From contig NZ_JOHS01000001.1 in the NCBI RefSeq assembly GCF_000725625.1, forward strand, positions 186,001-250,000: a stretch of 64,000 nucleotides of DNA. The letters are read 5' to 3'. The translations under genes were made by a program, and so were the position numbers. This DNA comes from Streptomyces sp. NRRL F-6676. Its GTDB lineage: Bacteria > Actinomycetota > Actinomycetes > Streptomycetales > Streptomycetaceae. The notes under the pieces were generated by a model. It ran no database searches. It was given only the letters and a program-made list of their open reading frames with translations, and was not told where the DNA came from. The number at the start of each line of letters is the position of its first letter. Position 1 is the first letter of the stretch. Below, piece by piece: positions 4,885-64,000 of the stretch.

Positions 4885-6318
4885 ATGAACGAAAACCCCA
4901 GGACTCCTTTCCCGACCCCTTCCCACTGGATCGACGGCCGTGCCGTCACCGGCTCCGGACCGTTGATCGACGTCGTGAACCCCGCCGACGAGTCGATCGT
5001 CGCCCACCTGCACGAGGCCACCGCCGACGAGGTGGACGCGGCAGTCGACGCCGCGGTCGCCGCCTTCCCCGGATGGGCCTCGAAGCCCCCGCGGCACCGG
5101 GCGGACGTCATGCGACGTCTGGCCGAGGGCGTGCAGAAGCGGAGCGAGGAACTGGCGGCCACCATCACCCTGGAGATGGGCGCCCCCATCGCCTTCTCCC
5201 GGCAGGCGCAGGTCGGATTCCCGGTCGCCTCCGTTCTGGCCGCGATCGCCGCGGCCGAGCGGTTCGAGTGGACGGAGACGGTCGAGAACTCGCTCGTCGT
5301 CCGCGAGCCCGTCGGAGTGGTGGGGGCCATCACCCCGTGGAACTTCCCGTTGCAGCAGTTGGTGACGAAGGTGGTCCCGGCGATGCTGGCGGGCAACAGC
5401 GTCGTCCTCAAGCCCTCGGAGATGTCTCCCCTCAGCGCCCGTATGTTCGCGGAGATCGCGACGGAGGCCGGGCTCCCGAACGGTGTGTTCAACGTGGTGC
5501 AGGGAACCGGCCCGGTGGTCGGTGAGGCCCTGTCCCGCCACCCGAAGATCGGCATGATCTCCTTCACCGGGTCCACCCGCGCCGGCAAGAGCGTCTCCAG
5601 CGCCGCTTCCGACACGGTGAAGCGGGTCGCACTCGAACTGGGCGGCAAGGCGGCCCACATCATCCTCCCCGAGGCCGACCTCGACTCCGCCGTCACCCGC
5701 GGACTCGCCTTCGCCTGGGCCAACGCCGGCCAGGCCTGCGGTGCCTACGTGCGCATGCTCGTGCCCGAGGACCTTCAGGCGACCGTGGTCGACAAGCTCC
5801 GGACCGCCGCCCAGGAGTACGTGGTCGGTGATCCCGCCGCCGAGGCCACGCGGATCGGACCACTCGCCTCGGAGACCCAGCGCCGACGCGTCGACGACTA
5901 CATCCGGCGCGGCATCGCCGACGGCGCCACCCTCGTGACGGGCGGCCCCGGCCGTCCGGAGGGTTTCGGGACCGGCGCCTACGTCAGGCCCACGATCTTC
6001 TCCGACGTCGCACCGGAGTCGGTCATCGCCCAGGAGGAGATCTTCGGCCCCGTCCTGGTCGTCATCCCCTACACCGACGACGATCACGCCGTCGAGATCG
6101 CCAACGGCACGGTCTACGGCCTCAACGCCGCGGTGACCGGAGACGAGGACCACGCCATGGCGATCGCCATGCGCCTGCGTGTCGGGCAGGTCGACGTCAA
6201 TGGCGGCCCGCACAACTTCCAGGCACCGTTCGGCGGATACAAGCAGTCCGGCAACGGCCGGGAGATGGGCCGTGCGGGCCTGGAGGAGTTCCTGGAGACC
6301 AAGGCGATCACACGCTGA
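4885..6318 (+). CDS. Aldehyde dehydrogenase family protein (NAD(P)-dependent)
   Basis: A 477-residue cytosolic aldehyde dehydrogenase oxidising an aldehyde to the acid with NAD(P)+. The diagnostic residues are present: N153 in TPWNFP, the general base E251 in LELGGK, and the catalytic C285 in AGQACG. The motif EIFGPVLVVIPY and the C-terminal PFGGYKQSGNGREMG are also typical. The start at 4885 gives the usual length. An in-frame ATG at 4852 has the better ribosome site (GGAGAG at 4841-4846) and would add 11 residues, so the start is uncertain. It diverges from a LAL regulator and precedes an XRE regulator. The substrate cannot be told from sequence. Confidence 0.93.
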   Translation: MNENPRTPFPTPSHWIDGRAVTGSGPLIDVVNPADESIVAHLHEATADEVDAAVDAAVAAFPGWASKPPRHRADVMRRLAEGVQKRSEELAATITLEMGAPIAFSRQAQVGFPVASVLAAIAAAERFEWTETVENSLVVREPVGVVGAITPWNFPLQQLVTKVVPAMLAGNSVVLKPSEMSPLSARMFAEIATEAGLPNGVFNVVQGTGPVVGEALSRHPKIGMISFTGSTRAGKSVSSAASDTVKRVALELGGKAAHIILPEADLDSAVTRGLAFAWANAGQACGAYVRMLVPEDLQATVVDKLRTAAQEYVVGDPAAEATRIGPLASETQRRRVDDYIRRGIADGATLVTGGPGRPEGFGTGAYVRPTIFSDVAPESVIAQEEIFGPVLVVIPYTDDDHAVEIANGTVYGLNAAVTGDEDHAMAIAMRLRVGQVDVNGGPHNFQAPFGGYKQSGNGREMGRAGLEEFLETKAITR

Positions 6319-6482
6319 CGCACCCTGCCACCGTTTCCGAAGGGGAACACACTGTTCATCGGGAATGCGGCAACTCGGATGCGACGTTGAGTCGTTGACA
6401 CGTGCTCGACATCTCGTTGATCCACTGAATCACGGCGGTGCGCCCGAACCGGGGCGGCACGGCCCCGTGCGAAAGGACGACC

Positions 6483-7313
6483 ATGACGGACCGCGCGGCG
6501 CTGGCCGCGTTCCTGCGGGCGCGCCGCGAGGCCCTGCAACCCGAGGACGTCGGGTTGCCGCGCGGCCGCCGCAGACGAACCGGGGGACTGCGACGCGAGG
6601 AGGTCGCCACCCTGTGTGACATGTCGGTGGACTACTGCAGCCGGCTGGAGCAGCCGCGGGGCCCGCACCCCTCGGAGCAGATGCTCACCGCGATGGCCCG
6701 CGGCCTGCGCCTGTCACTGGAGGAACGCGATCTCCTGTTCCAGCTCGCCGGTCATGCCCTGCCGCGCCGTGCCCGACGCGGTGATCACGTCGCCCCCGGG
6801 ATGATGCGCATCCTGGACCGGCTGGAGGACACTCCCGCCCAGGTGATGAACCACCTGGGCGAGACGCTGAGCCAGACCCGCCCCGCGGTGGCCCTGCTGG
6901 GCGACCAGACGGCCTACACAGGACTGGCCCGCAGTTCCCACTACCGCTGGTTCACGGACCCCGCCGCCCGCCTGGTCCACCCCGAGAGCGATCACGCCGA
7001 GCAGAGCCGTCTCATGGTGGCCGACCTCCACAGCGCCTACTCCCGCGACGGGGGCGACTCGGGTGCCGCCGCGCTCGTGGACGCGCTGAACAGGGAGAGT
7101 CCCGAGTTCGCCGGCCTGTGGCGGCAGCGACCCGTGCTGGGACCCTACTGCGCCTCCAAGCGCTTCGTGCACCCACAGTTCGGAACACTCGAACTGCACT
7201 GCCAGACACTGATCGACCCCGACCAGTCCCAGCGGCTCGTGGTCTACACCGCGACACCGGGGACGGAGAGCCACACCAACCTCCGACTGCTGTCCCTCCT
7301 GCCGGTCCTGTGA
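6483..7313 (+). CDS. XRE-family regulator with MmyB-like ligand-binding domain
   Basis: A 276-residue DNA-binding protein. The N-terminal XRE HTH (about residues 30-65, with LRREEVATLCDMSVDYCSRLEQ) is followed by the MmyB-like ligand-binding domain common in Streptomyces. The start at 6483 has GAAAGGA eight bases upstream; the frame extends upstream to 6438 without similarity. It lies 164 bases after the aldehyde dehydrogenase on the same strand and may control it or a neighbour. A TTGACA element at 6395-6400 could be its -35, but I see no convincing -10. A paralogue with the same architecture occurs at 56715-57569. Confidence 0.88.
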   Translation: MTDRAALAAFLRARREALQPEDVGLPRGRRRRTGGLRREEVATLCDMSVDYCSRLEQPRGPHPSEQMLTAMARGLRLSLEERDLLFQLAGHALPRRARRGDHVAPGMMRILDRLEDTPAQVMNHLGETLSQTRPAVALLGDQTAYTGLARSSHYRWFTDPAARLVHPESDHAEQSRLMVADLHSAYSRDGGDSGAAALVDALNRESPEFAGLWRQRPVLGPYCASKRFVHPQFGTLELHCQTLIDPDQSQRLVVYTATPGTESHTNLRLLSLLPVL

Positions 7314-7339
7314 AGGTACGGCCCTCGCGGCTGCCGGGG

Positions 7340-7948
7340 TCAGGCCCAGTCGAGGGCGTGCTCGTGGGCCAGCCTCGGCAAGCGGTCGAACGCCGGAGGT
7401 CCGGCCGGGTGCCCGATGTTGACCACGAGGATGGAGTGCCAGTCGCTGTCGGCGAAGAACTCCTTGTCGATCCCGGCCCGGTCGAAGCCGGCCATCGGAC
7501 CCGCGGCCAGACCGAGGGCGCGCACGGCGAGGATGAAGTAACCGGCCTGAAGCGGTCCGTTGAACGACGTGATGGCCTCGCGCCGGGCGGGCTCGCTCTC
7601 GAAGTACTCCTTCATCTCCGGACGGATGGGCAGGACGTGCGGGATGTGCTCGTGGAAGCGGTGGTCCGCGGCGAGAACCGCGACGACGGGCGCGGAAGCC
7701 GACTTCGGCCGGTTCCCCTCGTCGAGGTGCGGCAGCAGGCGCTCCTTGCCCTCGGCCGTACGGACGTACAGGACGCGCAGCGGCTGGGTGTTCGCCGCGG
7801 TCGGTGCCCAGCGGGTGAGCTCCCAGATGCTGGTGAGCGTCGCGTCGTCGACCGGGGTGTCGGCGAAGGAGTACGCGGTGCGGGCGTCGGTGAAGAGCGC
7901 GGCGCCGGCCTCTGCGGGGATGCGGGGGAGGGGTCCGGGGACGGACAT
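7340..7948 (-). CDS. Nitroreductase family protein, RutE/HadB-like
   Basis: A 202-residue FMN-dependent oxidoreductase of the nitroreductase fold, most like the malonic semialdehyde reductase (RutE) branch. It has an N-terminal RTAYSF segment, TRWAPTAANTQPLRVLYV (FMN phosphate contacts) and the conserved MKEYFESEPARREAI region. Length is usual for the subfamily. The start at 7948 has AGGAGAC at an ideal distance. It is divergent from an HxlR regulator 112 bases away, a pairing common for redox enzymes regulated by electrophile-sensing HxlR proteins. No other rut genes are nearby, so a pyrimidine-degradation role is not supported; detoxification of quinones or nitro compounds is as likely. Confidence 0.88.
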   Translation of the reverse strand: MSVPGPLPRIPAEAGAALFTDARTAYSFADTPVDDATLTSIWELTRWAPTAANTQPLRVLYVRTAEGKERLLPHLDEGNRPKSASAPVVAVLAADHRFHEHIPHVLPIRPEMKEYFESEPARREAITSFNGPLQAGYFILAVRALGLAAGPMAGFDRAGIDKEFFADSDWHSILVVNIGHPAGPPAFDRLPRLAHEHALDWA

Positions 7949-55818: not shown

Positions 55819-56628
55819 TCAGGCGCGGGCGCCGCCGTCGACGCGCAGGACCGTGCCGGTCACGTACGAGGCGCGGTCGCTGAGCAGCCAGGCGGCGGCC
55901 TGGGCGATCTCCTCCGGGTCCGCCGCGCGCCCCAGCGGGTGGTGCGCCGTCAGCCGGTCCTGGAGGCCCGGCGAGTGCGTCTCCCAGGTGCGGATCATCT
56001 CGGTGAGCGTATTGCCGGGAGCGATGGCGTTGATCCGTATGCCCTCGGGCCCGTACGTCACGGCCGCCGACTCCGTGAGGCTGTTCACCGCCCGCTTCAT
56101 CGCCCCGTACGCGGGCAGCTCGGGGTTGGCCATGAGGCTGCCGACGCTGGAGTTGTTGACCAGCGCGCCCACCTTCGCGGTGGCCCGGATCGCGGCGACC
56201 TCGGCGGCCATGGCGAGCCAGACCCCCTTGAGGTTGACGGTGTAGACATGGTCGAAGTCGGCCTCGCTCATCCGGTCCAGCGGGCCCGGCGGCACGAAGG
56301 TCGCGCCGTTGTTGAAGGCGACGTCGAGCCGGCCGTACAGCTCCACGGCACGGTCGACGGCGGCGCGCACGCTCGCCCCGTCGGCCAGGTCGCACACCAT
56401 GTACGCGGCGGTTCCGCCCGCCGCCCCGATCTCCTCCGTCACCGCTTTCAGCTGCGCCTCCGTACGGGCGGCCAGCAGCACCTCGGCGCCCTCGCGGGCG
56501 AACAGCCGGGCCGCCGCGGCGCCGATGCCCCGCCCGGCGCCGGTCACGAAGGCGACCTTGCCGGCCAGCAGCCCGGAGCCCGGTGTGTCGTTCCCGCGGT
56601 CGGTCGTGTTGTTGCTCTTGTCGTCCAT
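55819..56628 (-). CDS. SDR family NAD(P)-dependent oxidoreductase
   Basis: A 269-residue classical short-chain dehydrogenase. Cofactor motif TGAGRGIG (29-36), NNG (106-108, NNGA instead of NNAG), catalytic S160, Y174 and K178 (YGAMK), and C-terminal VTGTVLRVDGGARA. The substitution in the NNAG motif is notable but tolerated in some members. The ATG at 56628 begins the fold closely. It is divergent from an XRE regulator at 56715, its probable controller. The substrate is unknown. Confidence 0.92.
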   Translation of the reverse strand: MDDKSNNTTDRGNDTPGSGLLAGKVAFVTGAGRGIGAAAARLFAREGAEVLLAARTEAQLKAVTEEIGAAGGTAAYMVCDLADGASVRAAVDRAVELYGRLDVAFNNGATFVPPGPLDRMSEADFDHVYTVNLKGVWLAMAAEVAAIRATAKVGALVNNSSVGSLMANPELPAYGAMKRAVNSLTESAAVTYGPEGIRINAIAPGNTLTEMIRTWETHSPGLQDRLTAHHPLGRAADPEEIAQAAAWLLSDRASYVTGTVLRVDGGARA

Positions 56629-56714
56629 GGCAGCGAGCCTGCGCCCGGCCCCGGGGCTCAGCCAGGCACCAGCGGTACCTGGATGACGTGCCGGGACCCG
56701 CGCACACTGGGGGA

Positions 56715-57569
56715 GTGGACCGACGAGAACTGGGCGAGTTCCTGCGCAGCAGACGCGCGCGCATCACCCCCGCCGACGTGGGCCTGCCCGCCGGGCGGCG
56801 GCGCCGCACCCCGGGGCTGCGCCGCGAGGAGGCCGCGCAGCTGGCGTACATCTCGACCGAGTACTACACGCGGCTCGAACAGGCCCGCGCCCCCCGCCCG
56901 TCACGGGAGGTGCTGGCCGGACTGGCCCGCGCCCTGCGCCTGGACGACGCCGAGCGCGCCCACCTCCACCACCTCGCCGGCGCCTCACCGAGCCCGCCGC
57001 CCGGGCCCTGCCGCGAGGTGCGGCAGAGCATCCTGGAGCTGCTGAACCGGCTGCCGGGCACCGCCGCCCACGTGGTCTCCGCGACGTACGAGGTGCTCGC
57101 CTGGAACCCGCTCGCGGCCGCCCTGATGGAGGACTTCTCGGCCCTGCCGCCCAAGGAGCGCAACCTGCTGCGCAAGGTCTTCCTCGGCCCCCAGGGCCCG
57201 GGGGAGCGGCTGTACGGCGTGTCCGATGCCGACACCTTCGCCCGCTGCTCGGCCCAGCAACTGCGCGCCACCGCCGCCCGCTACCCGGACGACCCGGAGG
57301 TGCGGGAGCTCGTCGCCGAACTGCGCGCGGGCAGTGAGGAGTTCGCCAGGCTGTGGGACTCGCACGACGTACGGACGCAGCGCAGCCTGCGCAAGACGTT
57401 CCCGCACACGGTGGTCGGCCCGGTCACCGTCGACTGCGACGTCCTCGACGTCACCGACCGGGACCAGCGGGTCGTGCTGTACACCGCGCCGCCCGGGTCC
57501 CGCTCGGAGGAGGCCCTGCGGCTGCTGTCGGTCGTGGGCACCCAGAACCTGGACGTGAGCGAGGCGTAG
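56715..57569 (+). CDS. XRE-family regulator with MmyB-like ligand-binding domain
   Basis: A 284-residue regulator of the same architecture as the one at 6483. The XRE HTH is in RREEAAQLAYISTEYYTRLE (about residues 38-60) after LGEFLRSRRARITPADVGLP. The MmyB-like domain follows (TYEVLAWNPLAAALMEDFSA, FARLWDSHDVRTQRS, LTDRDQRVVLYTAPPGSRSE-like). The GTG at 56715 is chosen by homology; GGGGGA directly abuts it. Divergent with the SDR gene across 86 bases, a pattern in which the regulator controls the oxidoreductase. It converges on the Sir2 gene. Confidence 0.88.
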   Translation: MDRRELGEFLRSRRARITPADVGLPAGRRRRTPGLRREEAAQLAYISTEYYTRLEQARAPRPSREVLAGLARALRLDDAERAHLHHLAGASPSPPPGPCREVRQSILELLNRLPGTAAHVVSATYEVLAWNPLAAALMEDFSALPPKERNLLRKVFLGPQGPGERLYGVSDADTFARCSAQQLRATAARYPDDPEVRELVAELRAGSEEFARLWDSHDVRTQRSLRKTFPHTVVGPVTVDCDVLDVTDRDQRVVLYTAPPGSRSEEALRLLSVVGTQNLDVSEA

Positions 57570-57576
57570 GGGCTCC

Positions 57577-58446
57577 TCACGCCCCGAGGCGGTCGGCCAG
57601 ACCGGTCAGGGTCCGCCCCAGCGGGAGGTCCAGCCGTACGGCGGCCAGGTCGTCGCCGCGGGTCGGGCCCTGGTTGACGACGGCGACGGGCTTGCCCGTC
57701 TTCGCGGCGTGGCGCACGAAGCGCAGACCGGACATCACCGTCAGGGAGGACCCGGTGACCAGCAGCGCGGACGCCGCGTCGACCAGGTCGAAGCAGTGCG
57801 CGACGCGCGGCTTGGGCACGCTCTCGCCGAAGAACACCACGTCCGGCTTGAGCGTCCCCGTGCCGCACACCTGACAGGACACCGTACGGAACGCCGCCTC
57901 CCGGTCGCGGGCCAGCTCCGCGTCGCCGTCGGGGTTGACCCGGGCGGCGAGGTCGCGGAACTCCGGGTTGGCCTCGTCCAGGCGCTGGTGCAGCTGCCGG
58001 CGCGAGACGATGTTCTCGCAGGTCAGACAGATCACCCGGTGCAGACTGCCGTGCAGTTCGACCGCCTGGGGCGTGCCCGCCGCGGCGTGCAGACCGTCCA
58101 CGTTCTGGGTGATGACACCGGAGACCAGACCGGCCGCGACCAGCCGGGTCACCGCCCGGTGCCCCGCGTTCGGCCGCGCCCGCCCGATCGACTCCCAGCC
58201 GAGGTGACTGCGCGCCCAGTAGCGGCGCCGGTTCTCCTCGCTGCCGGTGAACTCCTGGTACGTCATCGGCGTGTGCCGGCGCCGGCTGCCCGAGGGGCCG
58301 CGGTAGTCGGGGATCCCCGACTCAGTGGAGATCCCGGCGCCGCTCAGCACGAGGACGCCCCCGCCCGCGAGCATCCGCTCCACCACCGCGAGCCCGTCGG
58401 CGGACTCGGTGCGGAGCGGGGGATCCGGAGTCACGGCTGTGTCCAT
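57577..58446 (-). CDS. Sir2-family NAD-dependent deacylase
   Basis: A 289-residue sirtuin. GAGISTESGIPDYRG and TQNVDGLH are the NAD-binding motifs, the catalytic histidine is in VELHGSLHRV, and the zinc knuckle has CLTC and CQVC pairs. VVFFGESVP and TGSSLTVMS close the pocket. It removes acyl groups from lysines using NAD+. The start at 58446 follows a gap of 60 bases from the GntR gene. No acetyltransferase or Acs gene adjoins it. The partner GNAT is 2.3 kb away but no link is shown. Confidence 0.92.
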   Translation of the reverse strand: MDTAVTPDPPLRTESADGLAVVERMLAGGGVLVLSGAGISTESGIPDYRGPSGSRRRHTPMTYQEFTGSEENRRRYWARSHLGWESIGRARPNAGHRAVTRLVAAGLVSGVITQNVDGLHAAAGTPQAVELHGSLHRVICLTCENIVSRRQLHQRLDEANPEFRDLAARVNPDGDAELARDREAAFRTVSCQVCGTGTLKPDVVFFGESVPKPRVAHCFDLVDAASALLVTGSSLTVMSGLRFVRHAAKTGKPVAVVNQGPTRGDDLAAVRLDLPLGRTLTGLADRLGA

Positions 58447-58506: not shown

Positions 58507-59220
58507 TCACTCCCAGACGACGACGTTCCGCCGCACGGGCACCGCGTCCGAGTTGGACGCGAACAGCTCCGGGGAACGGCTGCGAAGCTGCTCGATGTCC
58601 TCGAAGACCGCCCGCAGATGCCCGCGCATGGTCGTGCGGGCGCGCTCGATGTCGTGGTCGAGAACGGCGCGGAGGATGTCCTCGTGCTGGTCGGCGAAGA
58701 ACCGCGGCGAGCCCACCTCGTACAGCCCGAGGCGCCGCGCCCGGTCGAGATGGCCCTTGGCGGAGACCACCGTGGACCACGCGCTGCCGTGGCTGCTGAG
58801 CCGCAGCAGCCCGCGGTGGAACTCCTCGTCGAGCCCGAAGAACTCCTCCACGTCGATCCCGGGCCGCTGCTGCCGGGCGATGTTCTCGCGCAGCTCCGCG
58901 ACGAGCCCGGGGTCCGGGTCGGCGGGCAGGTCGTCGAGGGCCGCCAGCTCCACCGCCTCGCGCAGGAACTGGGCGTCGGCGACCCGCGCCGGGTCGACGC
59001 GCGAGACGAACGAGCCCACCTGCGGGAAGACCTGGACGAGCCCCTCCTCGGCGAGCAGGATCAGGCTCTCGCGCACCGGGGTGCGGCTCACGCCGAGGGC
59101 GGCGGCCAGCTCGTTCTCCGACAGCGCGCTGCCGGGCGGCAGCTCCAGCGTCAGCACCCTGCGCCTGAGCGTCTCGTAGACGACGCGGCGACTGGTGCGC
59201 CGCCTGTCGGATCCAGCCAT
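58507..59220 (-). CDS. GntR-family (FCD/FadR-type) repressor of the sugar-acid cluster
   Basis: A 237-residue regulator. The winged helix ([40 protein letters not shown]) is followed by the FCD ligand-binding domain with helices ([38 protein letters not shown]). The metal-binding Asp/His pattern of FCD proteins is plausible. It is divergent from manD, and the perfect 22-base palindrome (59282-59303) between them contains TTGTATACAA, typical of GntR operators. It should repress the catabolic operon until the sugar acid binds. Confidence 0.92.
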
Positions 59221-59281
59221 GCCGTCACTGTAGTCGACAGCCCTGGTGCACTAGTACTCCACTCTTGACCACCCCGTCGGC

Positions 59282-59303
59282 CAGTGCTTGTATACAAGCA
59301 CTG
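59282..59303. promoter_or_regulatory. GntR operator: perfect 22-bp palindrome
   Basis: CAGTGCTTGTA (59282-59292) is followed at once by TACAAGCACTG (59293-59303), a perfect palindrome with core TTGTATACAA. It lies 27 bases before manD and 61 bases before the GntR start, exactly where an operator controlling both divergent transcripts should be. A TTGACC at 59265-59270 may be a -35, but the -10 is unclear. Confidence 0.8.
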
Positions 59304-59330
59304 TTATGCCACTGCGACGGGAGTAGGACC

Positions 59331-60539
59331 ATGAGCCGGATCGAACGTGCCGAGGTGTTCGTGGCGTCACCCGGACGCAACTTCGTCACCCTGCGGCTGA
59401 CGACCTCGGACGGCGTCACCGGCCTGGGCGACGCCACCCTGAACGGCCGCGAACTCGCCGTCGCCAGCTACCTCCGCGACCACGTCGCCCCCCTGCTGAT
59501 CGGCCGCGACCCGGCCCGCATCGAGGACATCTGGCAGTACCTCTACCGGGGCGCGTACTGGCGCCGGGGCCCGGTCACCATGACCGCGATCTCCGCCGTC
59601 GACACCGCCCTGTGGGACATCAAGGGCAAGGTCGCCGGACTGCCCGTCTACCAGCTCCTCGGCGGCCGCTCCCGCGACGGCGTCCTCGTCTACTCCCACG
59701 CCAGCGGCACCGACGTACCCTCCCTCCTCGACGACGTCGCCCGCTTCCGCGAGCTGGGCTACAAGGCGATCCGCGCCCAGGCCGCCGTGCCCGGCGTCCC
59801 CGGCAGCTACGGCGTCCGCGTCGGCCCCGTCTACGAGCCCGCCGCCCACTCCCTGCCCGAGGAGCAGCCCTGGTCCACCGAGGCCTACCTGGACTTCGCG
59901 CCCACCTACCTGGAGGCCGTCCGCGACCGCTTCGGGTTCGACTTCCACCTCCTGCACGACGTGCACCACCGGCTCACCCCGATCGAGGCCGCCCGGTTCG
60001 GCAAGCGGGTGGAGGACTGCCGGCTGTTCTGGATGGAGGACCCGACCCCGGTCGAGAACCAGGAGTCCTTCCGCCTCATCCGGCAGCACACCACGACCCC
60101 CCTCGCCGTCGGCGAGGTGCTCAGCTCCATCTGGGACGTCCAGCACCTCATCACCGAACAGCTCATCGACTACGTCCGCACCACCGTCGTGCACGCCGGC
60201 GGCATCACCCACCTGCGGCGCATCTTCGACCTGGCCGCGCTCTACCAGGTCCGCACCGGCTCCCACGGCGCCGCCGACCTGTCACCCGTCACCCTCGCCG
60301 CGGCCGTCCACCTCGACACCGCCGTCCCCAACTTCGGCATCCAGGAGTACATGCCGCACGTCGAGGAGACCGGGGAGGTCTTCCGCAGCGAGGTGCGCTA
60401 CGCCGACGGCATGCTGCACGTCGGAGAGGCCCCCGGGCTCGGCGTCGAGTACGACGAGAAGGCCGCCGAGCGCTTCCCCTACGACCCCCGCTATCTGCCC
60501 GTCGCCCGCCGCCTCGACGGCTCGGTCCACGACTGGTGA
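59331..60539 (+). CDS. manD: D-mannonate dehydratase, ManD family (enolase superfamily)
   Basis: A 402-residue enolase-superfamily enzyme dehydrating D-mannonate (or low-efficiency D-gluconate/D-mannonate variant) to 2-keto-3-deoxygluconate. It has the ManD pattern [40 protein letters not shown], metal ligands in LLHDVHHR and WMEDPTP and AVGEV, and the terminal VHDW. GGGAG precedes the ATG at 59331. It heads the operon controlled by the GntR operator. ManD members vary in efficiency; the low-efficiency group is often linked to L-gulonate or L-idonate pathways. Confidence 0.93.
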
Positions 60540-60546
60540 GGACCCC

Positions 60547-62025
60547 GTGACCCAGCAGCACACCCCGAGCGACCTGAGCCGGGACAGCCTCTCCCGGCTC
60601 GCCCCCGCACACCGCCCGCTCGTCGACCCCCGCGAACTGCGGCCGCGCACCGTCCACTTCGGTCCCGGCGCCTTCCACCGGGCCCACCAGGCCCTCTACA
60701 CCGAGACGGCCGCCGCGCGCTCCGGCGAACCCTGGGGCATCGTCGCCGTCGCCCCGCGCTCCGCGGAGACGACCGCCGCCCTGCGCGCGCAGGACTGCCT
60801 GTACTCGGTCACCGAGCGCGCGCCGGGAGGGGCCCGTACGCGCGTGGTCGGCGCCCTGGTCGGTGCGCTGACGATGCGCCCCGACGCCGGCCGCGTCGAT
60901 GCGCTGCTCGCCTCGGCCGAGGTCACCACGGTCACCCTCACCGTGACCGAGAAGGGCTACGCCCGGGACGCCGAGACCGGCGGACTGGACGCGGCGGCGC
61001 CCGGCATCGACGCCGACCTCGCGGCCACGGCCGGGAGGGGCACGGCCGGCATGGTCACCGTCGTCGGCCGGCTCGCCGCGTCCCTCGCCGTCCGTTTCCG
61101 CGGCTCGGCGGCCCCGCTCTCCGTCGTCTCCTGCGACAACGCGGCGGGGAACGGGAGGGCACTGGCCCGTGTCCTGCGCGAGTTCGTCGAACGCTCCGCC
61201 TGGCCCGACCGGCGGCCGCTGCTGGACTGGCTCGCCGCCGAGGTCGCCTTCCCCGACACCGTCGTCGACCGCATCGTCCCCGCCACGACGGACGAGGACC
61301 GCGAGGGCGCGTCCGCGGCGCTCGGCGTGCGCGACGCGCTGCCCGTCGCCGGGGAGCCCTACCGGCAGTGGGTGCTCCAGGACTCCTTCCGCGCGGAGCG
61401 CCCGCCCTGGGAACACGGCGGTGCGCTCCTCGTGCCGGACGTCGCCCCGTACCAGCTCACCAAGCTGCGCCTGCTCAACGGGGCGCACTCCGCCATGGCC
61501 TATGTCGGCGCGGCCGCCGGCTGCCGGACCGTGGCCGAGGTGATGGAGACGGAGTGGGGGGAGCGGCTGGTCCGCGCCTTCTGCGCGGAGGTGGCCCCCA
61601 CGCTGCCCCCGGGCGGTCCCGACCCGGCGCGCTACACCGACGACCTCGTCGAACGGTTCCGCAACCCGGCGATGCGGCACCTGTTGCGGCAGATCGGGTC
61701 CGACGGGTCCCTGAAGATTCCGGAGCGGTGGGTGGGGCCGTTGCGCACGCTTCGCGCGGCGGGGGCCGGCACGCCGGTACTCGAACTGGCGCTGGCGGCA
61801 TGGGCGGACGCCACCCGCCCGGGCGCGGACGGCCGTCAGCTCCACGGCACGACCGATCCGGCGGCGGAGGCGCTCGCGCGGTGCGGGGAGGCCGGTGATC
61901 CGGCCTCAGTCGTCGGCCGGCTGCTGACGACGATCGGCGCGGCGGATCTGGCGGGCGCGCCGGATCTCGTCGCGGCCGTGGCCGACCGCCTTCCCGCGCT
62001 GCGCGCGGGGCGCGTCGAGCTCTGA
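60547..62025 (+). CDS. uxuB: Mannitol/mannonate dehydrogenase family, fructuronate reductase-like (UxuB)
   Basis: A 492-residue polyol/mannonate dehydrogenase reducing D-fructuronate to D-mannonate with NAD(P)H. The N-terminal FGPGAFHRAHQALY is typical, and KLRLLNGAHSAMAYVG carries the catalytic Lys, Asn and His. The GTG at 60547 lies seven bases after manD with GAGG as ribosome site, so they are co-transcribed. Its product is the ManD substrate. Members of the family also act on altronate or mannitol; the context favours fructuronate. Confidence 0.9.
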   Translation: MTQQHTPSDLSRDSLSRLAPAHRPLVDPRELRPRTVHFGPGAFHRAHQALYTETAAARSGEPWGIVAVAPRSAETTAALRAQDCLYSVTERAPGGARTRVVGALVGALTMRPDAGRVDALLASAEVTTVTLTVTEKGYARDAETGGLDAAAPGIDADLAATAGRGTAGMVTVVGRLAASLAVRFRGSAAPLSVVSCDNAAGNGRALARVLREFVERSAWPDRRPLLDWLAAEVAFPDTVVDRIVPATTDEDREGASAALGVRDALPVAGEPYRQWVLQDSFRAERPPWEHGGALLVPDVAPYQLTKLRLLNGAHSAMAYVGAAAGCRTVAEVMETEWGERLVRAFCAEVAPTLPPGGPDPARYTDDLVERFRNPAMRHLLRQIGSDGSLKIPERWVGPLRTLRAAGAGTPVLELALAAWADATRPGADGRQLHGTTDPAAEALARCGEAGDPASVVGRLLTTIGAADLAGAPDLVAAVADRLPALRAGRVEL

Positions 62026-62053
62026 CGCGGAGCGTCGGGGGCGGGTGGGTTCG

Positions 62054-62173
62054 GCGGGTGCGGGTGCGGCGTGGCTGGTCGCGCAGTTCCCCGCGCCCCT
62101 GAAAGGCGCCTGCGGGGCCATAGGAGCGCGGGGAACCGCGCGAGCGACCACGACCTACCCGCACCCGCCCACC
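62054..62173. repeat. Streptomyces dispersed inverted-repeat element
   Basis: GGTCGCGCAGTTCCCCGCGC (from 62077) and GCGCGGGGAACCGCGCGAG (62126-62144) form imperfect arms, flanked by GCGGGTGCGGGTG (about 62055) and its complement CACCCGC near 62160. The same kind of repeat element occurs in many Streptomyces intergenic regions and at the end of the condensation-domain gene. It lies between uxuB and the MFS gene inside the operon and may attenuate or stabilise the transcript. Confidence 0.7.
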
Positions 62174-62233
62174 TGCCGTACCCCCCCACCCGCCGTACCC
62201 CCCACCCCCTTTGGCGATTCAAGGAGGCACACG

Positions 62234-63622
62234 ATGACGCACACCACCCAGGCCCCGCCCGGCAGGGCGAGCCGTAGTACCCGGGACCTCACCCGCGCCG
62301 CCGTGTCCGGGTGGCTCGGTACGGCGATGGAGTTCATGGACTTCCAGCTCTACTCGCTCGCCGCGGCCGTCGTCTTCAACCAGATCTTCTTCCCGGACGT
62401 CAGCCCCGCCATCGGCCTGATCGCCGCGATGGCGACCTACGGCGTCGGGTACGTCGCCCGTCTCGCCGGCGCCGTCTACTTCGGTCGCCTCGGCGACCGG
62501 ATCGGCCGCAAGAAGGTGCTGTTCGTCACCATCGTGCTGATGGGCGCGTCCACCACCCTCATCGGCGCCCTGCCGTCGTACGCCACCATCGGCATCGCCG
62601 CCCCGGTCCTGCTCGTCGCGTTCCGCCTGATCCAGGGCTTCGGCGCCGGCGCGGAGATCGCGGGCGCCACCGCGATGCTGACCGAGTACGCCCCGTCCGG
62701 CCGCCGGGGACTGATCTCCTCCCTGGTCTCGCTGGGTACCAACTCCGGCACACTGGCCGCCTCCGGGCTGTGGGCCGTGCTCCTCGCCACCCTCTCCGAG
62801 GACCAGATGCTCGCCTGGGGCTGGCGCCTGCCGTTCCTGTGCAGCTTCCTGCTGCTGCTCTTCGCCGTGTGGCTGCGCACCCACCTCAAGGAGAGCCCGG
62901 TCTTCGAGCAACGCCCCGACGTGGTCGACGGCGTCGCGCTCTCCCGCGAAGAGCTGAAGGCCGACGGCGGTGCCGGGACGGAGTCCGGCGCGCACGCCCT
63001 GGAGGCCGGGCTGCGCCAGCGCAAGGGCCGGGCCTTCTTCCTCGCGCTCGGTCTGCGCTTCGGCCAGGCCGGCAACTCGGGGCTCATCCAGACCTTCCTG
63101 GTCGGCTACCTCGCCACCACCCTCATGGTGGACCGCTCCGTGCCCACCACCGCCATCGTCTACGGCTCACTGCTCGGTTTCGTCACCGTGCCGGTCGTCG
63201 GGCTGCTCGGCGACCGCTTCGGCCGCCGGCCCGTCTACCTCGCGCTGACCGCGCTCACCATGGTCGTCGCCGTGCCCCTGATGTACGTGATCGCCAACGG
63301 CGGCACCGTGGCGCTCACGATCGCGGTCGTCCTCGCCCTCAACATCGGTGTCCTCGGACTGTTCTCGCTGGAGAGCGTCACCATGGCCGAACTCTTCGGC
63401 TCCCGCACCCGGTTCACCCAGCTCGCCGTCGCCAAGGAGATCGGCGGCATGCTGGCCACCGCCGTCGGACCCGTCATCGCGGCGTCGCTGACCGCCGCCA
63501 CCCACCACTGGTGGCCGATCGCCGCGATGCTCGTCGGCTACTCCCTCATCACGCTCGTCTCCGCCTGGCTCTCACCCGAGACGAAGGGGCGCGACCTCGT
63601 CGGACTGGAGGACGCGGCATGA
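62234..63622 (+). CDS. MFS transporter, metabolite:H+ symporter type (sugar-acid uptake)
   Basis: A 462-residue carrier with 12 predicted helices. It has GRLGDRIGRKKVLF (motif A), RLIQGFGAGAEIAGATAMLT, GLISSLVSLGTNSG, DRFGRRPVYLALT and the MHS-type PETKGRDL end. AAGGAGG lies six bases before the ATG at 62234; a GTG at 62045 would add repeat-encoded residues and is rejected. Its operon places it as the importer of the acid sugar (L-gulonate, L-idonate or hexuronate). It overlaps the next start by ATGA. Confidence 0.92.
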   Translation: MTHTTQAPPGRASRSTRDLTRAAVSGWLGTAMEFMDFQLYSLAAAVVFNQIFFPDVSPAIGLIAAMATYGVGYVARLAGAVYFGRLGDRIGRKKVLFVTIVLMGASTTLIGALPSYATIGIAAPVLLVAFRLIQGFGAGAEIAGATAMLTEYAPSGRRGLISSLVSLGTNSGTLAASGLWAVLLATLSEDQMLAWGWRLPFLCSFLLLLFAVWLRTHLKESPVFEQRPDVVDGVALSREELKADGGAGTESGAHALEAGLRQRKGRAFFLALGLRFGQAGNSGLIQTFLVGYLATTLMVDRSVPTTAIVYGSLLGFVTVPVVGLLGDRFGRRPVYLALTALTMVVAVPLMYVIANGGTVALTIAVVLALNIGVLGLFSLESVTMAELFGSRTRFTQLAVAKEIGGMLATAVGPVIAASLTAATHHWWPIAAMLVGYSLITLVSAWLSPETKGRDLVGLEDAA

Positions 63623-64000
63623 AGGCCGTCGTCGTACACGGTGCCGGTGATCTGCGCATCGACCAGCTGCCCGATCCGGTCCCCGGCCCCGGCGAGGTGC
63701 TCGTCGCCATGGAGTGGGGCGGGATCTGCGGCTCCGACCTGGCGTACTGGCGGCACGGTGGCTCCGGTACGGCCGTGCTCAAGCACCCCATGGTGCTCGG
63801 GCACGAGGTCGCCGGGCGGGTCGTCCGCACGGGGCCCGGTGTGCGCGGCTTCGAGGGCGGGCAGCCGGTCGCCGTCCATCCGGCCCGGGTGGTCGGGGAC
63901 GAGGTGCTGCCGGAGCGGATCGCCGGACGCACCAACCTCCATGCCCGGGTACGGTACTTCGGCTCCGCTGCCTTCGATCCGCACACCGACGGCGGGTTCA
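63619..64000 (+). CDS. Zinc alcohol dehydrogenase, L-idonate/L-gulonate 5-dehydrogenase-like (3' end outside window)
   Basis: The first 127 residues of a medium-chain dehydrogenase. Catalytic zinc ligands are C37 (GGICGSD) and H62-E63 (LGHEVAG). VRYFGSAAFDPHTDGGF matches the IdnD family. The structural-zinc lobe HPARVVGDEVLPERIAGRTN has V92, E95, P98 and H108 where IdnD has four cysteines, so no structural zinc can bind. The ATG overlaps the MFS stop (ATGA). It would oxidise L-gulonate or L-idonate at C5 to D-fructuronate or 5-ketogluconate, feeding UxuB and ManD. The gene continues beyond the window. Confidence 0.85.
   Translation, partial: MKAVVVHGAGDLRIDQLPDPVPGPGEVLVAMEWGGICGSDLAYWRHGGSGTAVLKHPMVLGHEVAGRVVRTGPGVRGFEGGQPVAVHPARVVGDEVLPERIAGRTNLHARVRYFGSAAFDPHTDGGF

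Follow-up and report, generated by a model that had tools for sequence, protein, structure and literature searches.

A candidate L-gulonate operon under a divergent GntR-family regulator in Streptomyces sp. NRRL F-6676

The genome of Streptomyces sp. NRRL F-6676 (8.1 Mb in 166 contigs) was followed up at one stretch of DNA—hereafter the window, 64,000 nucleotides corresponding to bases 186001–250000 of a 575-kb contig—which ends in five neighbouring genes: one for a GntR-family regulator and, divergent from it, genes for a D-mannonate dehydratase (ManD), a UxuB-like reductase, an MHS-type transporter and an IdnD-like dehydrogenase (Table 1). Judged by sequence, this block would form a self-regulated sugar-acid operon in which L-gulonate is converted to D-mannonate by a redox-neutral inversion at C5 and then dehydrated to 2-keto-3-deoxygluconate (KDG), a reading to which we give a probability of about 65%.

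Table 1. Genes and sequence elements of the candidate operon, in window coordinates.
Feature	Position	Strand	Proposed role or remark
GntR-family regulator with FCD domain, RspR-like	58507..59220	-	proposed repressor of the divergent operon
22-bp perfect palindrome CAGTGCTTGTATACAAGCACTG	59282..59303		proposed operator; ends 27 bp before the manD ATG
manD, 402 aa, D-mannonate dehydratase family (RspA/ManD subgroup, enolase superfamily)	59331..60539	+	
UxuB-like long-chain (mannitol-dehydrogenase family) reductase	60547..62025	+	proposed D-fructuronate to D-mannonate
Dispersed palindromic repeat, long GC hairpin	62035..62192		within the uxuB-transporter gap
MHS-type MFS transporter, YdfJ-like	62234..63622	+	proposed sugar-acid uptake
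IdnD-like zinc-type medium-chain dehydrogenase/reductase (MDR)	63619..64677 (window cut at 64000)	+	proposed L-gulonate (or L-idonate) 5-dehydrogenase

Locus organisation and candidate operator

All five genes were present, in the families and orientations given by the original prediction, which was made from the letters of the window and had the genes joined by short gaps or ATGA overlaps. Such spacing was found between manD and the uxuB-like gene (7 bp) and between the transporter and dehydrogenase genes (an ATGA overlap at 63619–63622), but not between the uxuB-like and transporter genes, where a gap of 208 bp contains a long hairpin repeat. The start of manD was placed at the ATG at 59331, whereas an automatic list of open reading frames had stretched the frame to 59265. 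The hairpin repeat folds as RNA at −121.3 kcal/mol (z −8.4) and has dozens of related copies elsewhere in the source genome, in many cases on both strands; it might act on the transcript of the operon, either attenuating or stabilising it. Beyond the window, some 120 bp separate the 3′ end of the dehydrogenase gene from a terminator-like hairpin (L009 7296–7329, in a numbering where 7178 is the end of that gene at window position 64677; two such sites, against 0.7 expected in shuffled sequence), so the operon probably ends there. A scan for sigma-70-type promoters returned no matches.

The regulator matched the Pfam families GntR (73 bits) and FCD (67 bits) and was closer to RspR of Escherichia coli (34% identity, 132 bits) than to UxuR (26%, 37 bits); its gene lies next to manD among relatives too. 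The palindrome between the two divergent genes is likely to be the operator. Its core TGCTTGTATACMAG recurred in 27 of 28 regulator–manD gaps (the source locus, L012, L026 and 25 loci from the genus), and the exception, L134, differed by one base. The named locus L014 also carries the core and L013 a diverged form of it, but the core was found in none of seven gaps from the middle manD lineage (70–78% identity; see below). In the source genome, an exact match to GCTTGTATACMAG occurred in the regulator–manD gap only, on both strands as expected of a palindrome, and an 18-base scan allowing up to three mismatches recovered the palindrome alone (control: none). Repression by the divergent regulator is likely, given its position and its family. 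The E. coli RspR box before rspA, part of a site that RspR protects, reads ATACnnGTAT in the excerpted text of PMC8249747; the palindrome described here differs from it in sequence.

An additional site on contig C6, considered as a further member of the regulon, was set aside as no evidence: the 13-base scan with one mismatch that turned it up produced three matches, and so did its reversed control.

Conservation of the gene block and its dehydratase

ManD scored 706.9 bits against the NCBIfam model for D-mannonate dehydratase (NF043051), above the curated cut-off of 550, and shares 66% identity with E. coli RspA; its best solved structures were 4il2 (named RspA) and 4e4f. Residue 314 of ManD, which presumably tracks catalytic efficiency, is alanine in the window protein, as in 2qjj, 2qjm and 4fi4, and proline in 4il2 and 4e4f (five of 15 matching structures were aligned). 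We take 2qjj to be an efficient D-mannonate enzyme. Alanine was conserved in all 30 ManD rows at ≥84% identity—a count in which the source gene appears to stand twice, as L170 and L171—and in all 14 at 70–84%, while the 79 rows below 70% had proline in 70 cases and alanine in nine.

For a wider view, we searched a genus sample of 392 genomes for ManD at E 1e-150 or better, scoring four candidates per genome. Matches were found in 92 genomes, with one in the source genome, and by best-match identity these fell into a close lineage (26 genomes at ≥84%, source included), a middle lineage (11 at 70–78%) and a distant lineage (55 at 61–66%). Neighbourhoods were compared at 40 loci (25 close, 11 middle and four of the 55 distant) together with the source locus. 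All five genes occurred in the same arrangement in 24 of the 26 close-lineage genomes, and the dehydrogenase gene was present in every one of the 25 clusters, the source included, whose contig reaches that far. One exception, L144, lies on a contig that ends within the cluster; the other, L143 (G261, 5313–7754), had no transporter match between the uxuB-like and dehydrogenase genes, and uptake there would require another carrier. The divergent regulator, ManD and UxuB-like genes were kept together in seven of the 11 middle-lineage neighbourhoods, where three of these seven also encode a more distant dehydrogenase (42–43%) close by and no transporter match was seen in any of the seven; the other four were arranged otherwise; in the distant lineage, manD stood alone in all four neighbourhoods. 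Within this sample, the full block thus goes with the close manD lineage. As ManD passes a curated cut-off and the whole block recurs in 24 of 26 genomes of its lineage, we do not regard the grouping as chance.

Beyond the genus sample, we compared at least 80 named manD loci, a collection biased towards GC-rich genomes, so that the counts of four and six that follow are not frequencies. The closest named relative was Streptomyces sp. S465 (ManD 92%). Its locus (L012) shares the gene order of the window, as do those of Kineosporia babensis (L013), Amycolatopsis acidicola (L014) and Saccharopolyspora rosea (L026); the contig of L014 starts 84 bases before manD, so that a regulator is not visible there. 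A second order, UxuB-like, dehydrogenase, transporter, ManD, was seen in six of the 80 (L038, L044, L053, L057, L076 and L082) and apparently also in L045, L063 and L081, where contig ends cut it. At the remaining named loci, manD is accompanied by part of this gene set or by no partner gene at all. That two gene orders share the same four families argues for a single pathway.

Candidate route to KDG and competing readings

In the proposed route, the YdfJ-like transporter would import L-gulonate, the IdnD-like dehydrogenase would use NAD(P)+ to oxidise this acid at C5, and the resulting D-fructuronate would be reduced from the opposite face to D-mannonate by the UxuB-like enzyme; from D-mannonate, ManD would form KDG. 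With one enzyme oxidising and the other reducing from the opposite face, C5 would be inverted at no net redox cost. KDG would then be phosphorylated by an unlinked KDG-kinase-like protein encoded on contig C3 and cleaved by a 2-keto-3-deoxy-6-phosphogluconate (KDPG) aldolase encoded on contig C21, and the RspR-like GntR protein, bound at 59282–59303, would repress the operon until an intermediate releases it. The sequence itself shows the gene families, their order and conservation, the palindrome, the lack of detectable UxuA and UxaC and the places of the kinase and aldolase candidates; from this we infer the substrate, the directions of the reactions, the repression and the recruitment of a kinase and an aldolase that are not linked to the operon. 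For the transporter, the top family was MHS (TIGR00883; 382.5 bits, below the cut-off of 443.45), and identity was far higher to E. coli YdfJ (53%, 461 bits) than to YhjE (32%, 180 bits).

The choice of substrate turns on a small chemical difference. L-gulonate and L-idonate differ at C2 only; oxidation at C5 gives D-fructuronate from the former and 5-keto-D-gluconate from the latter, and reduction from the opposite face then leads to D-mannonate in the first case and D-gluconate in the second, either of which loses water to become KDG. The same three enzymes could therefore be read as an L-idonate route, in which the IdnD-like enzyme yields 5-keto-D-gluconate, the UxuB-like enzyme D-gluconate, and ManD, acting as a D-gluconate dehydratase, KDG. 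The dehydrogenase itself speaks for this: its top family was L-idonate 5-dehydrogenase, and the window protein and three aligned relatives share the stretch F-G-S-A-x-x-x-P-H-x-D-G-G-F with E. coli IdnD, whereas RspB retains only H-x-D-G-G-F. Identity to IdnD was 37.5%, against 28% to RspB, and structure matches ranked sorbitol dehydrogenase (192 bits) and IdnD (187 bits) ahead of RspB (90 bits). Some enzymes of the ManD subgroup, moreover, dehydrate D-gluconate, and a 2014 paper, by its title in a reference list, reportedly names D-gluconate dehydratases and ‘L-gulonate and L-idonate’. Set against this, E. coli encodes an annotated 5-keto-D-gluconate reductase, IdnO, beside idnD; IdnO belongs to the short-chain dehydrogenases rather than to the UxuB type, and the ManD of the window has Ala314 as in 2qjj. 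The presence of a UxuB-like rather than an IdnO-like reductase, together with an Ala314 ManD, leans towards L-gulonate, and we regard the L-idonate route as unlikely.

The catalytic cysteine of the dehydrogenase is conserved in 29 of 29 sequences, but cysteines 93, 96 and 99 of IdnD are kept in none of them and cysteine 107 in one. We take these four to be the structural zinc site of IdnD, and by this comparison the window protein is a dehydrogenase without the presumed structural-zinc cysteines.

The UxuB-like protein has the Pfam domains Mannitol_dh and Mannitol_dh_C and found its top structure match in YdfI (4im7, 258 bits); its Lys-Asn-His triad (K306-N311-H314), presumably the mark of polyol-specific long-chain dehydrogenases, is conserved in 30 of 30 sequences. 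That it stands about equally near three E. coli oxidoreductases, and that the dehydrogenase also resembles sorbitol dehydrogenases, would suit a looser arrangement, in which the operon serves both acids, or D-mannonate or D-fructuronate is imported directly while the dehydrogenase acts on a different polyol or acid. The constancy of the dehydrogenase gene across every close-lineage cluster long enough to show it argues instead that it belongs to the pathway, and we hold this arrangement to be improbable.

A further alternative is the classic isomerase pathway for D-glucuronate, to which the dehydrogenase would be an incidental neighbour. It shares fructuronate reduction and mannonate dehydration with the proposed route, as set out in the excerpted part of PMC6353982. 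Its two diagnostic searches were negative in the source genome: UxuA gave no matches there (positive in 5 of 14 control genomes) and UxaC none (positive in 7 of 14). Entry of D-glucuronate would then be left to some other enzyme, such as a reductase to L-gulonate, for which no search was made. Because both enzymes went undetected while the controls were positive, we rejected the isomerase pathway as very unlikely. ManD is accordingly the only candidate mannonate dehydratase found in the source genome.

A KDG-kinase-like PfkB gene followed by a KDPG aldolase gene lies directly behind the operon in all four named loci of the same order; the top NCBIfam families of these PfkB proteins are of the KDG kinase type (below cut-off), and the aldolases of L013 and L014 exceed the cut-off of TIGR01182, those of L012 and L026 being assigned by similarity. 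A KDG-kinase-like gene comes next after the dehydrogenase gene in 13 of 22 judgeable close-lineage clusters, and no linked kinase was seen in the other nine, the source included, with at least 3.6 kb visible behind the dehydrogenase; four more clusters end too early to judge. Only the linked kinase of L129 is close to that of S465 (99% identity), and since the other 12 are at 36–42%, at least two kinase lineages have occupied the same slot.

In the source genome itself, inspection past 64000, where the original prediction had suggested looking, found no kinase or aldolase in the 12 kb beyond the operon. After the end of the dehydrogenase gene and the terminator-like hairpin, this DNA encodes an ABC uptake system, a pair of efflux transporters and a further cluster of the sugar- or organic-acid type. 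That both enzymes would lie outside the window was nevertheless borne out to the extent that candidates were found on other contigs. The sole KDPG aldolase found in the genome (C21:59787–60368) is above the TIGR01182 and PRK05718 cut-offs and below that of PRK06015, and the kinase candidate (C3:90370–91302) has KDG/KDGal kinase as its top family. Matches to the latter at ≥65% identity were present in 24 of the 26 close-lineage genomes (source included; in pieces in two) and aldolase matches of ≥227 bits in 23 of 26, so that the unlinked pair look like core genes that could finish the pathway where linked copies are missing.

Several points weigh against the L-gulonate reading. The functions of all five proteins are assignments from sequence alone. 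Both oxidoreductases have as their top family the one the original prediction named, yet both fall below the curated cut-off for that name: the dehydrogenase scored 252.7 bits against NF007375 (L-idonate 5-dehydrogenase IdnD; cut-off 469) and the reductase 261.8 bits against NF011611 (fructuronate reductase UxuB; cut-off 603), for which reason we keep the name at ‘UxuB-like’. Fructuronate is not singled out as the substrate of the latter, because the protein is about equidistant from E. coli YdfI (39%), UxuB (36%) and YeiQ (35%), and the likeness of the dehydrogenase to IdnD leans towards L-idonate. A 13-base operator scan of the source genome with one mismatch gave three matches, no more than the three of the reversed control pattern; the kinase candidate scored 184.5 bits against a cut-off of 400, and the operator scans of the source genome found no further operator near it; and clusters without a linked kinase could feed another pathway. 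The predicted conversion of L-gulonate or L-idonate to KDG fits the gene set, the kinase and aldolase genes behind the operon in four relatives and the failure to detect UxuA and UxaC, while the sequence does not settle which acid is used.

Counterparts in other bacteria and neighbouring genes

Each of the five roles, including that of an MDR dehydrogenase, has a counterpart at the rspA-rspB/ydfJ-ydfI/rspR locus of E. coli K-12, and four of the window proteins match RspR, RspA, YdfJ and, weakly, YdfI, for which orthology is likely. The genes there run rspA, rspB, ydfJ, ydfI, and rspR, last in the row, is oriented towards ydfI, whereas here the regulator gene is divergent from manD; in K-12, the Qin prophage also splits the locus, leaving rspR, ydfI and ydfJ on one side and rspB and rspA on the other. 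The E. coli dehydrogenase is RspB and that of the window IdnD-like, proline at residue 314 of 4il2 is replaced by alanine in the window ManD, and E. coli has uxuA in addition, whereas no UxuA was detected in the source genome. The E. coli idn operon (idnR, idnT, idnO, idnD) has an IdnD-type C5 dehydrogenase in common with the window, but it has IdnO as its 5-keto-D-gluconate reductase, other regulator and transporter genes, and neither a manD nor a UxuB-like gene.

That L-gulonate routes are established in other bacteria, as the original prediction held, agrees with work on Haemophilus influenzae, in which a chain of GulD, UxuB, UxuA, KdgK and KdgA has been shown experimentally (PMC5788505, in the excerpted text). 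The same excerpt gives the reaction chain proposed here, to glyceraldehyde 3-phosphate and pyruvate, but with a TRAP transporter (GulPQM) and UxuA (73% to E. coli UxuA) in place of the MHS transporter and ManD of the window. The L-gulonate locus of Chromohalobacter salexigens, as cited in the available part of PMC5507952, encodes catabolic enzymes and, like the window, a GntR-family regulator, but a TRAP-family transporter rather than an MHS one. Set beside these known systems, the window operon is of the same kind but differs in its dehydrogenase lineage and its operator and has no kinase–aldolase end linked to it. Among the matches listed in open-licence literature, there was no study of L-gulonate use in Streptomyces.

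The RspA-type L-gulonate route is cryptic in E. coli. The actinomycete cluster might represent its physiological form, with a non-orthologous IdnD-like 5-dehydrogenase lacking structural zinc, an Ala314 ManD as the sole mannonate dehydratase of the cell, and a kinase–aldolase end that has been repeatedly swapped or lost; we advance this tentatively, at somewhat less than even odds. If the L-gulonate reading is correct, a group of soil actinomycetes would consume L-gulonate through a compact self-regulated operon, and RspA-family dehydratases would be placed in a physiological context, that of a cell in which UxuA is not detected. Annotation would gain two gene families, IdnD-like C5 dehydrogenases that lack the structural zinc site and YdfJ-like transporters of sugar acids, along with a clear candidate operator, the value lying in useful annotation rather than in surprise.

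On the regulator side of the block, a Sir2-type deacetylase gene (57577–58446) adjoins a short-chain dehydrogenase gene that is divergent from a gene for an MmyB-like regulator with an MLTR ligand-binding domain (55819–57569). Behind the operon, the ABC uptake system (L009 7692–10515) came closest to models of siderophore and F420-0 transporters: its permease matched best the model for a putative F420-0 transporter (TIGR03869; 374.1 bits, cut-off 437.35) and its binding protein EitA and TIGR03868, in every case below cut-off. About 7 kb downstream lies a second GntR-headed cluster (L009 14059–19312; C1 about 257.6–262.8 kb), which encodes a flavin adenine dinucleotide-dependent oxidoreductase, a dehydratase of the IlvD/Edd family and an MHS-type transporter 37% identical to that of the window, and which is likely to serve another organic- or sugar-acid route.

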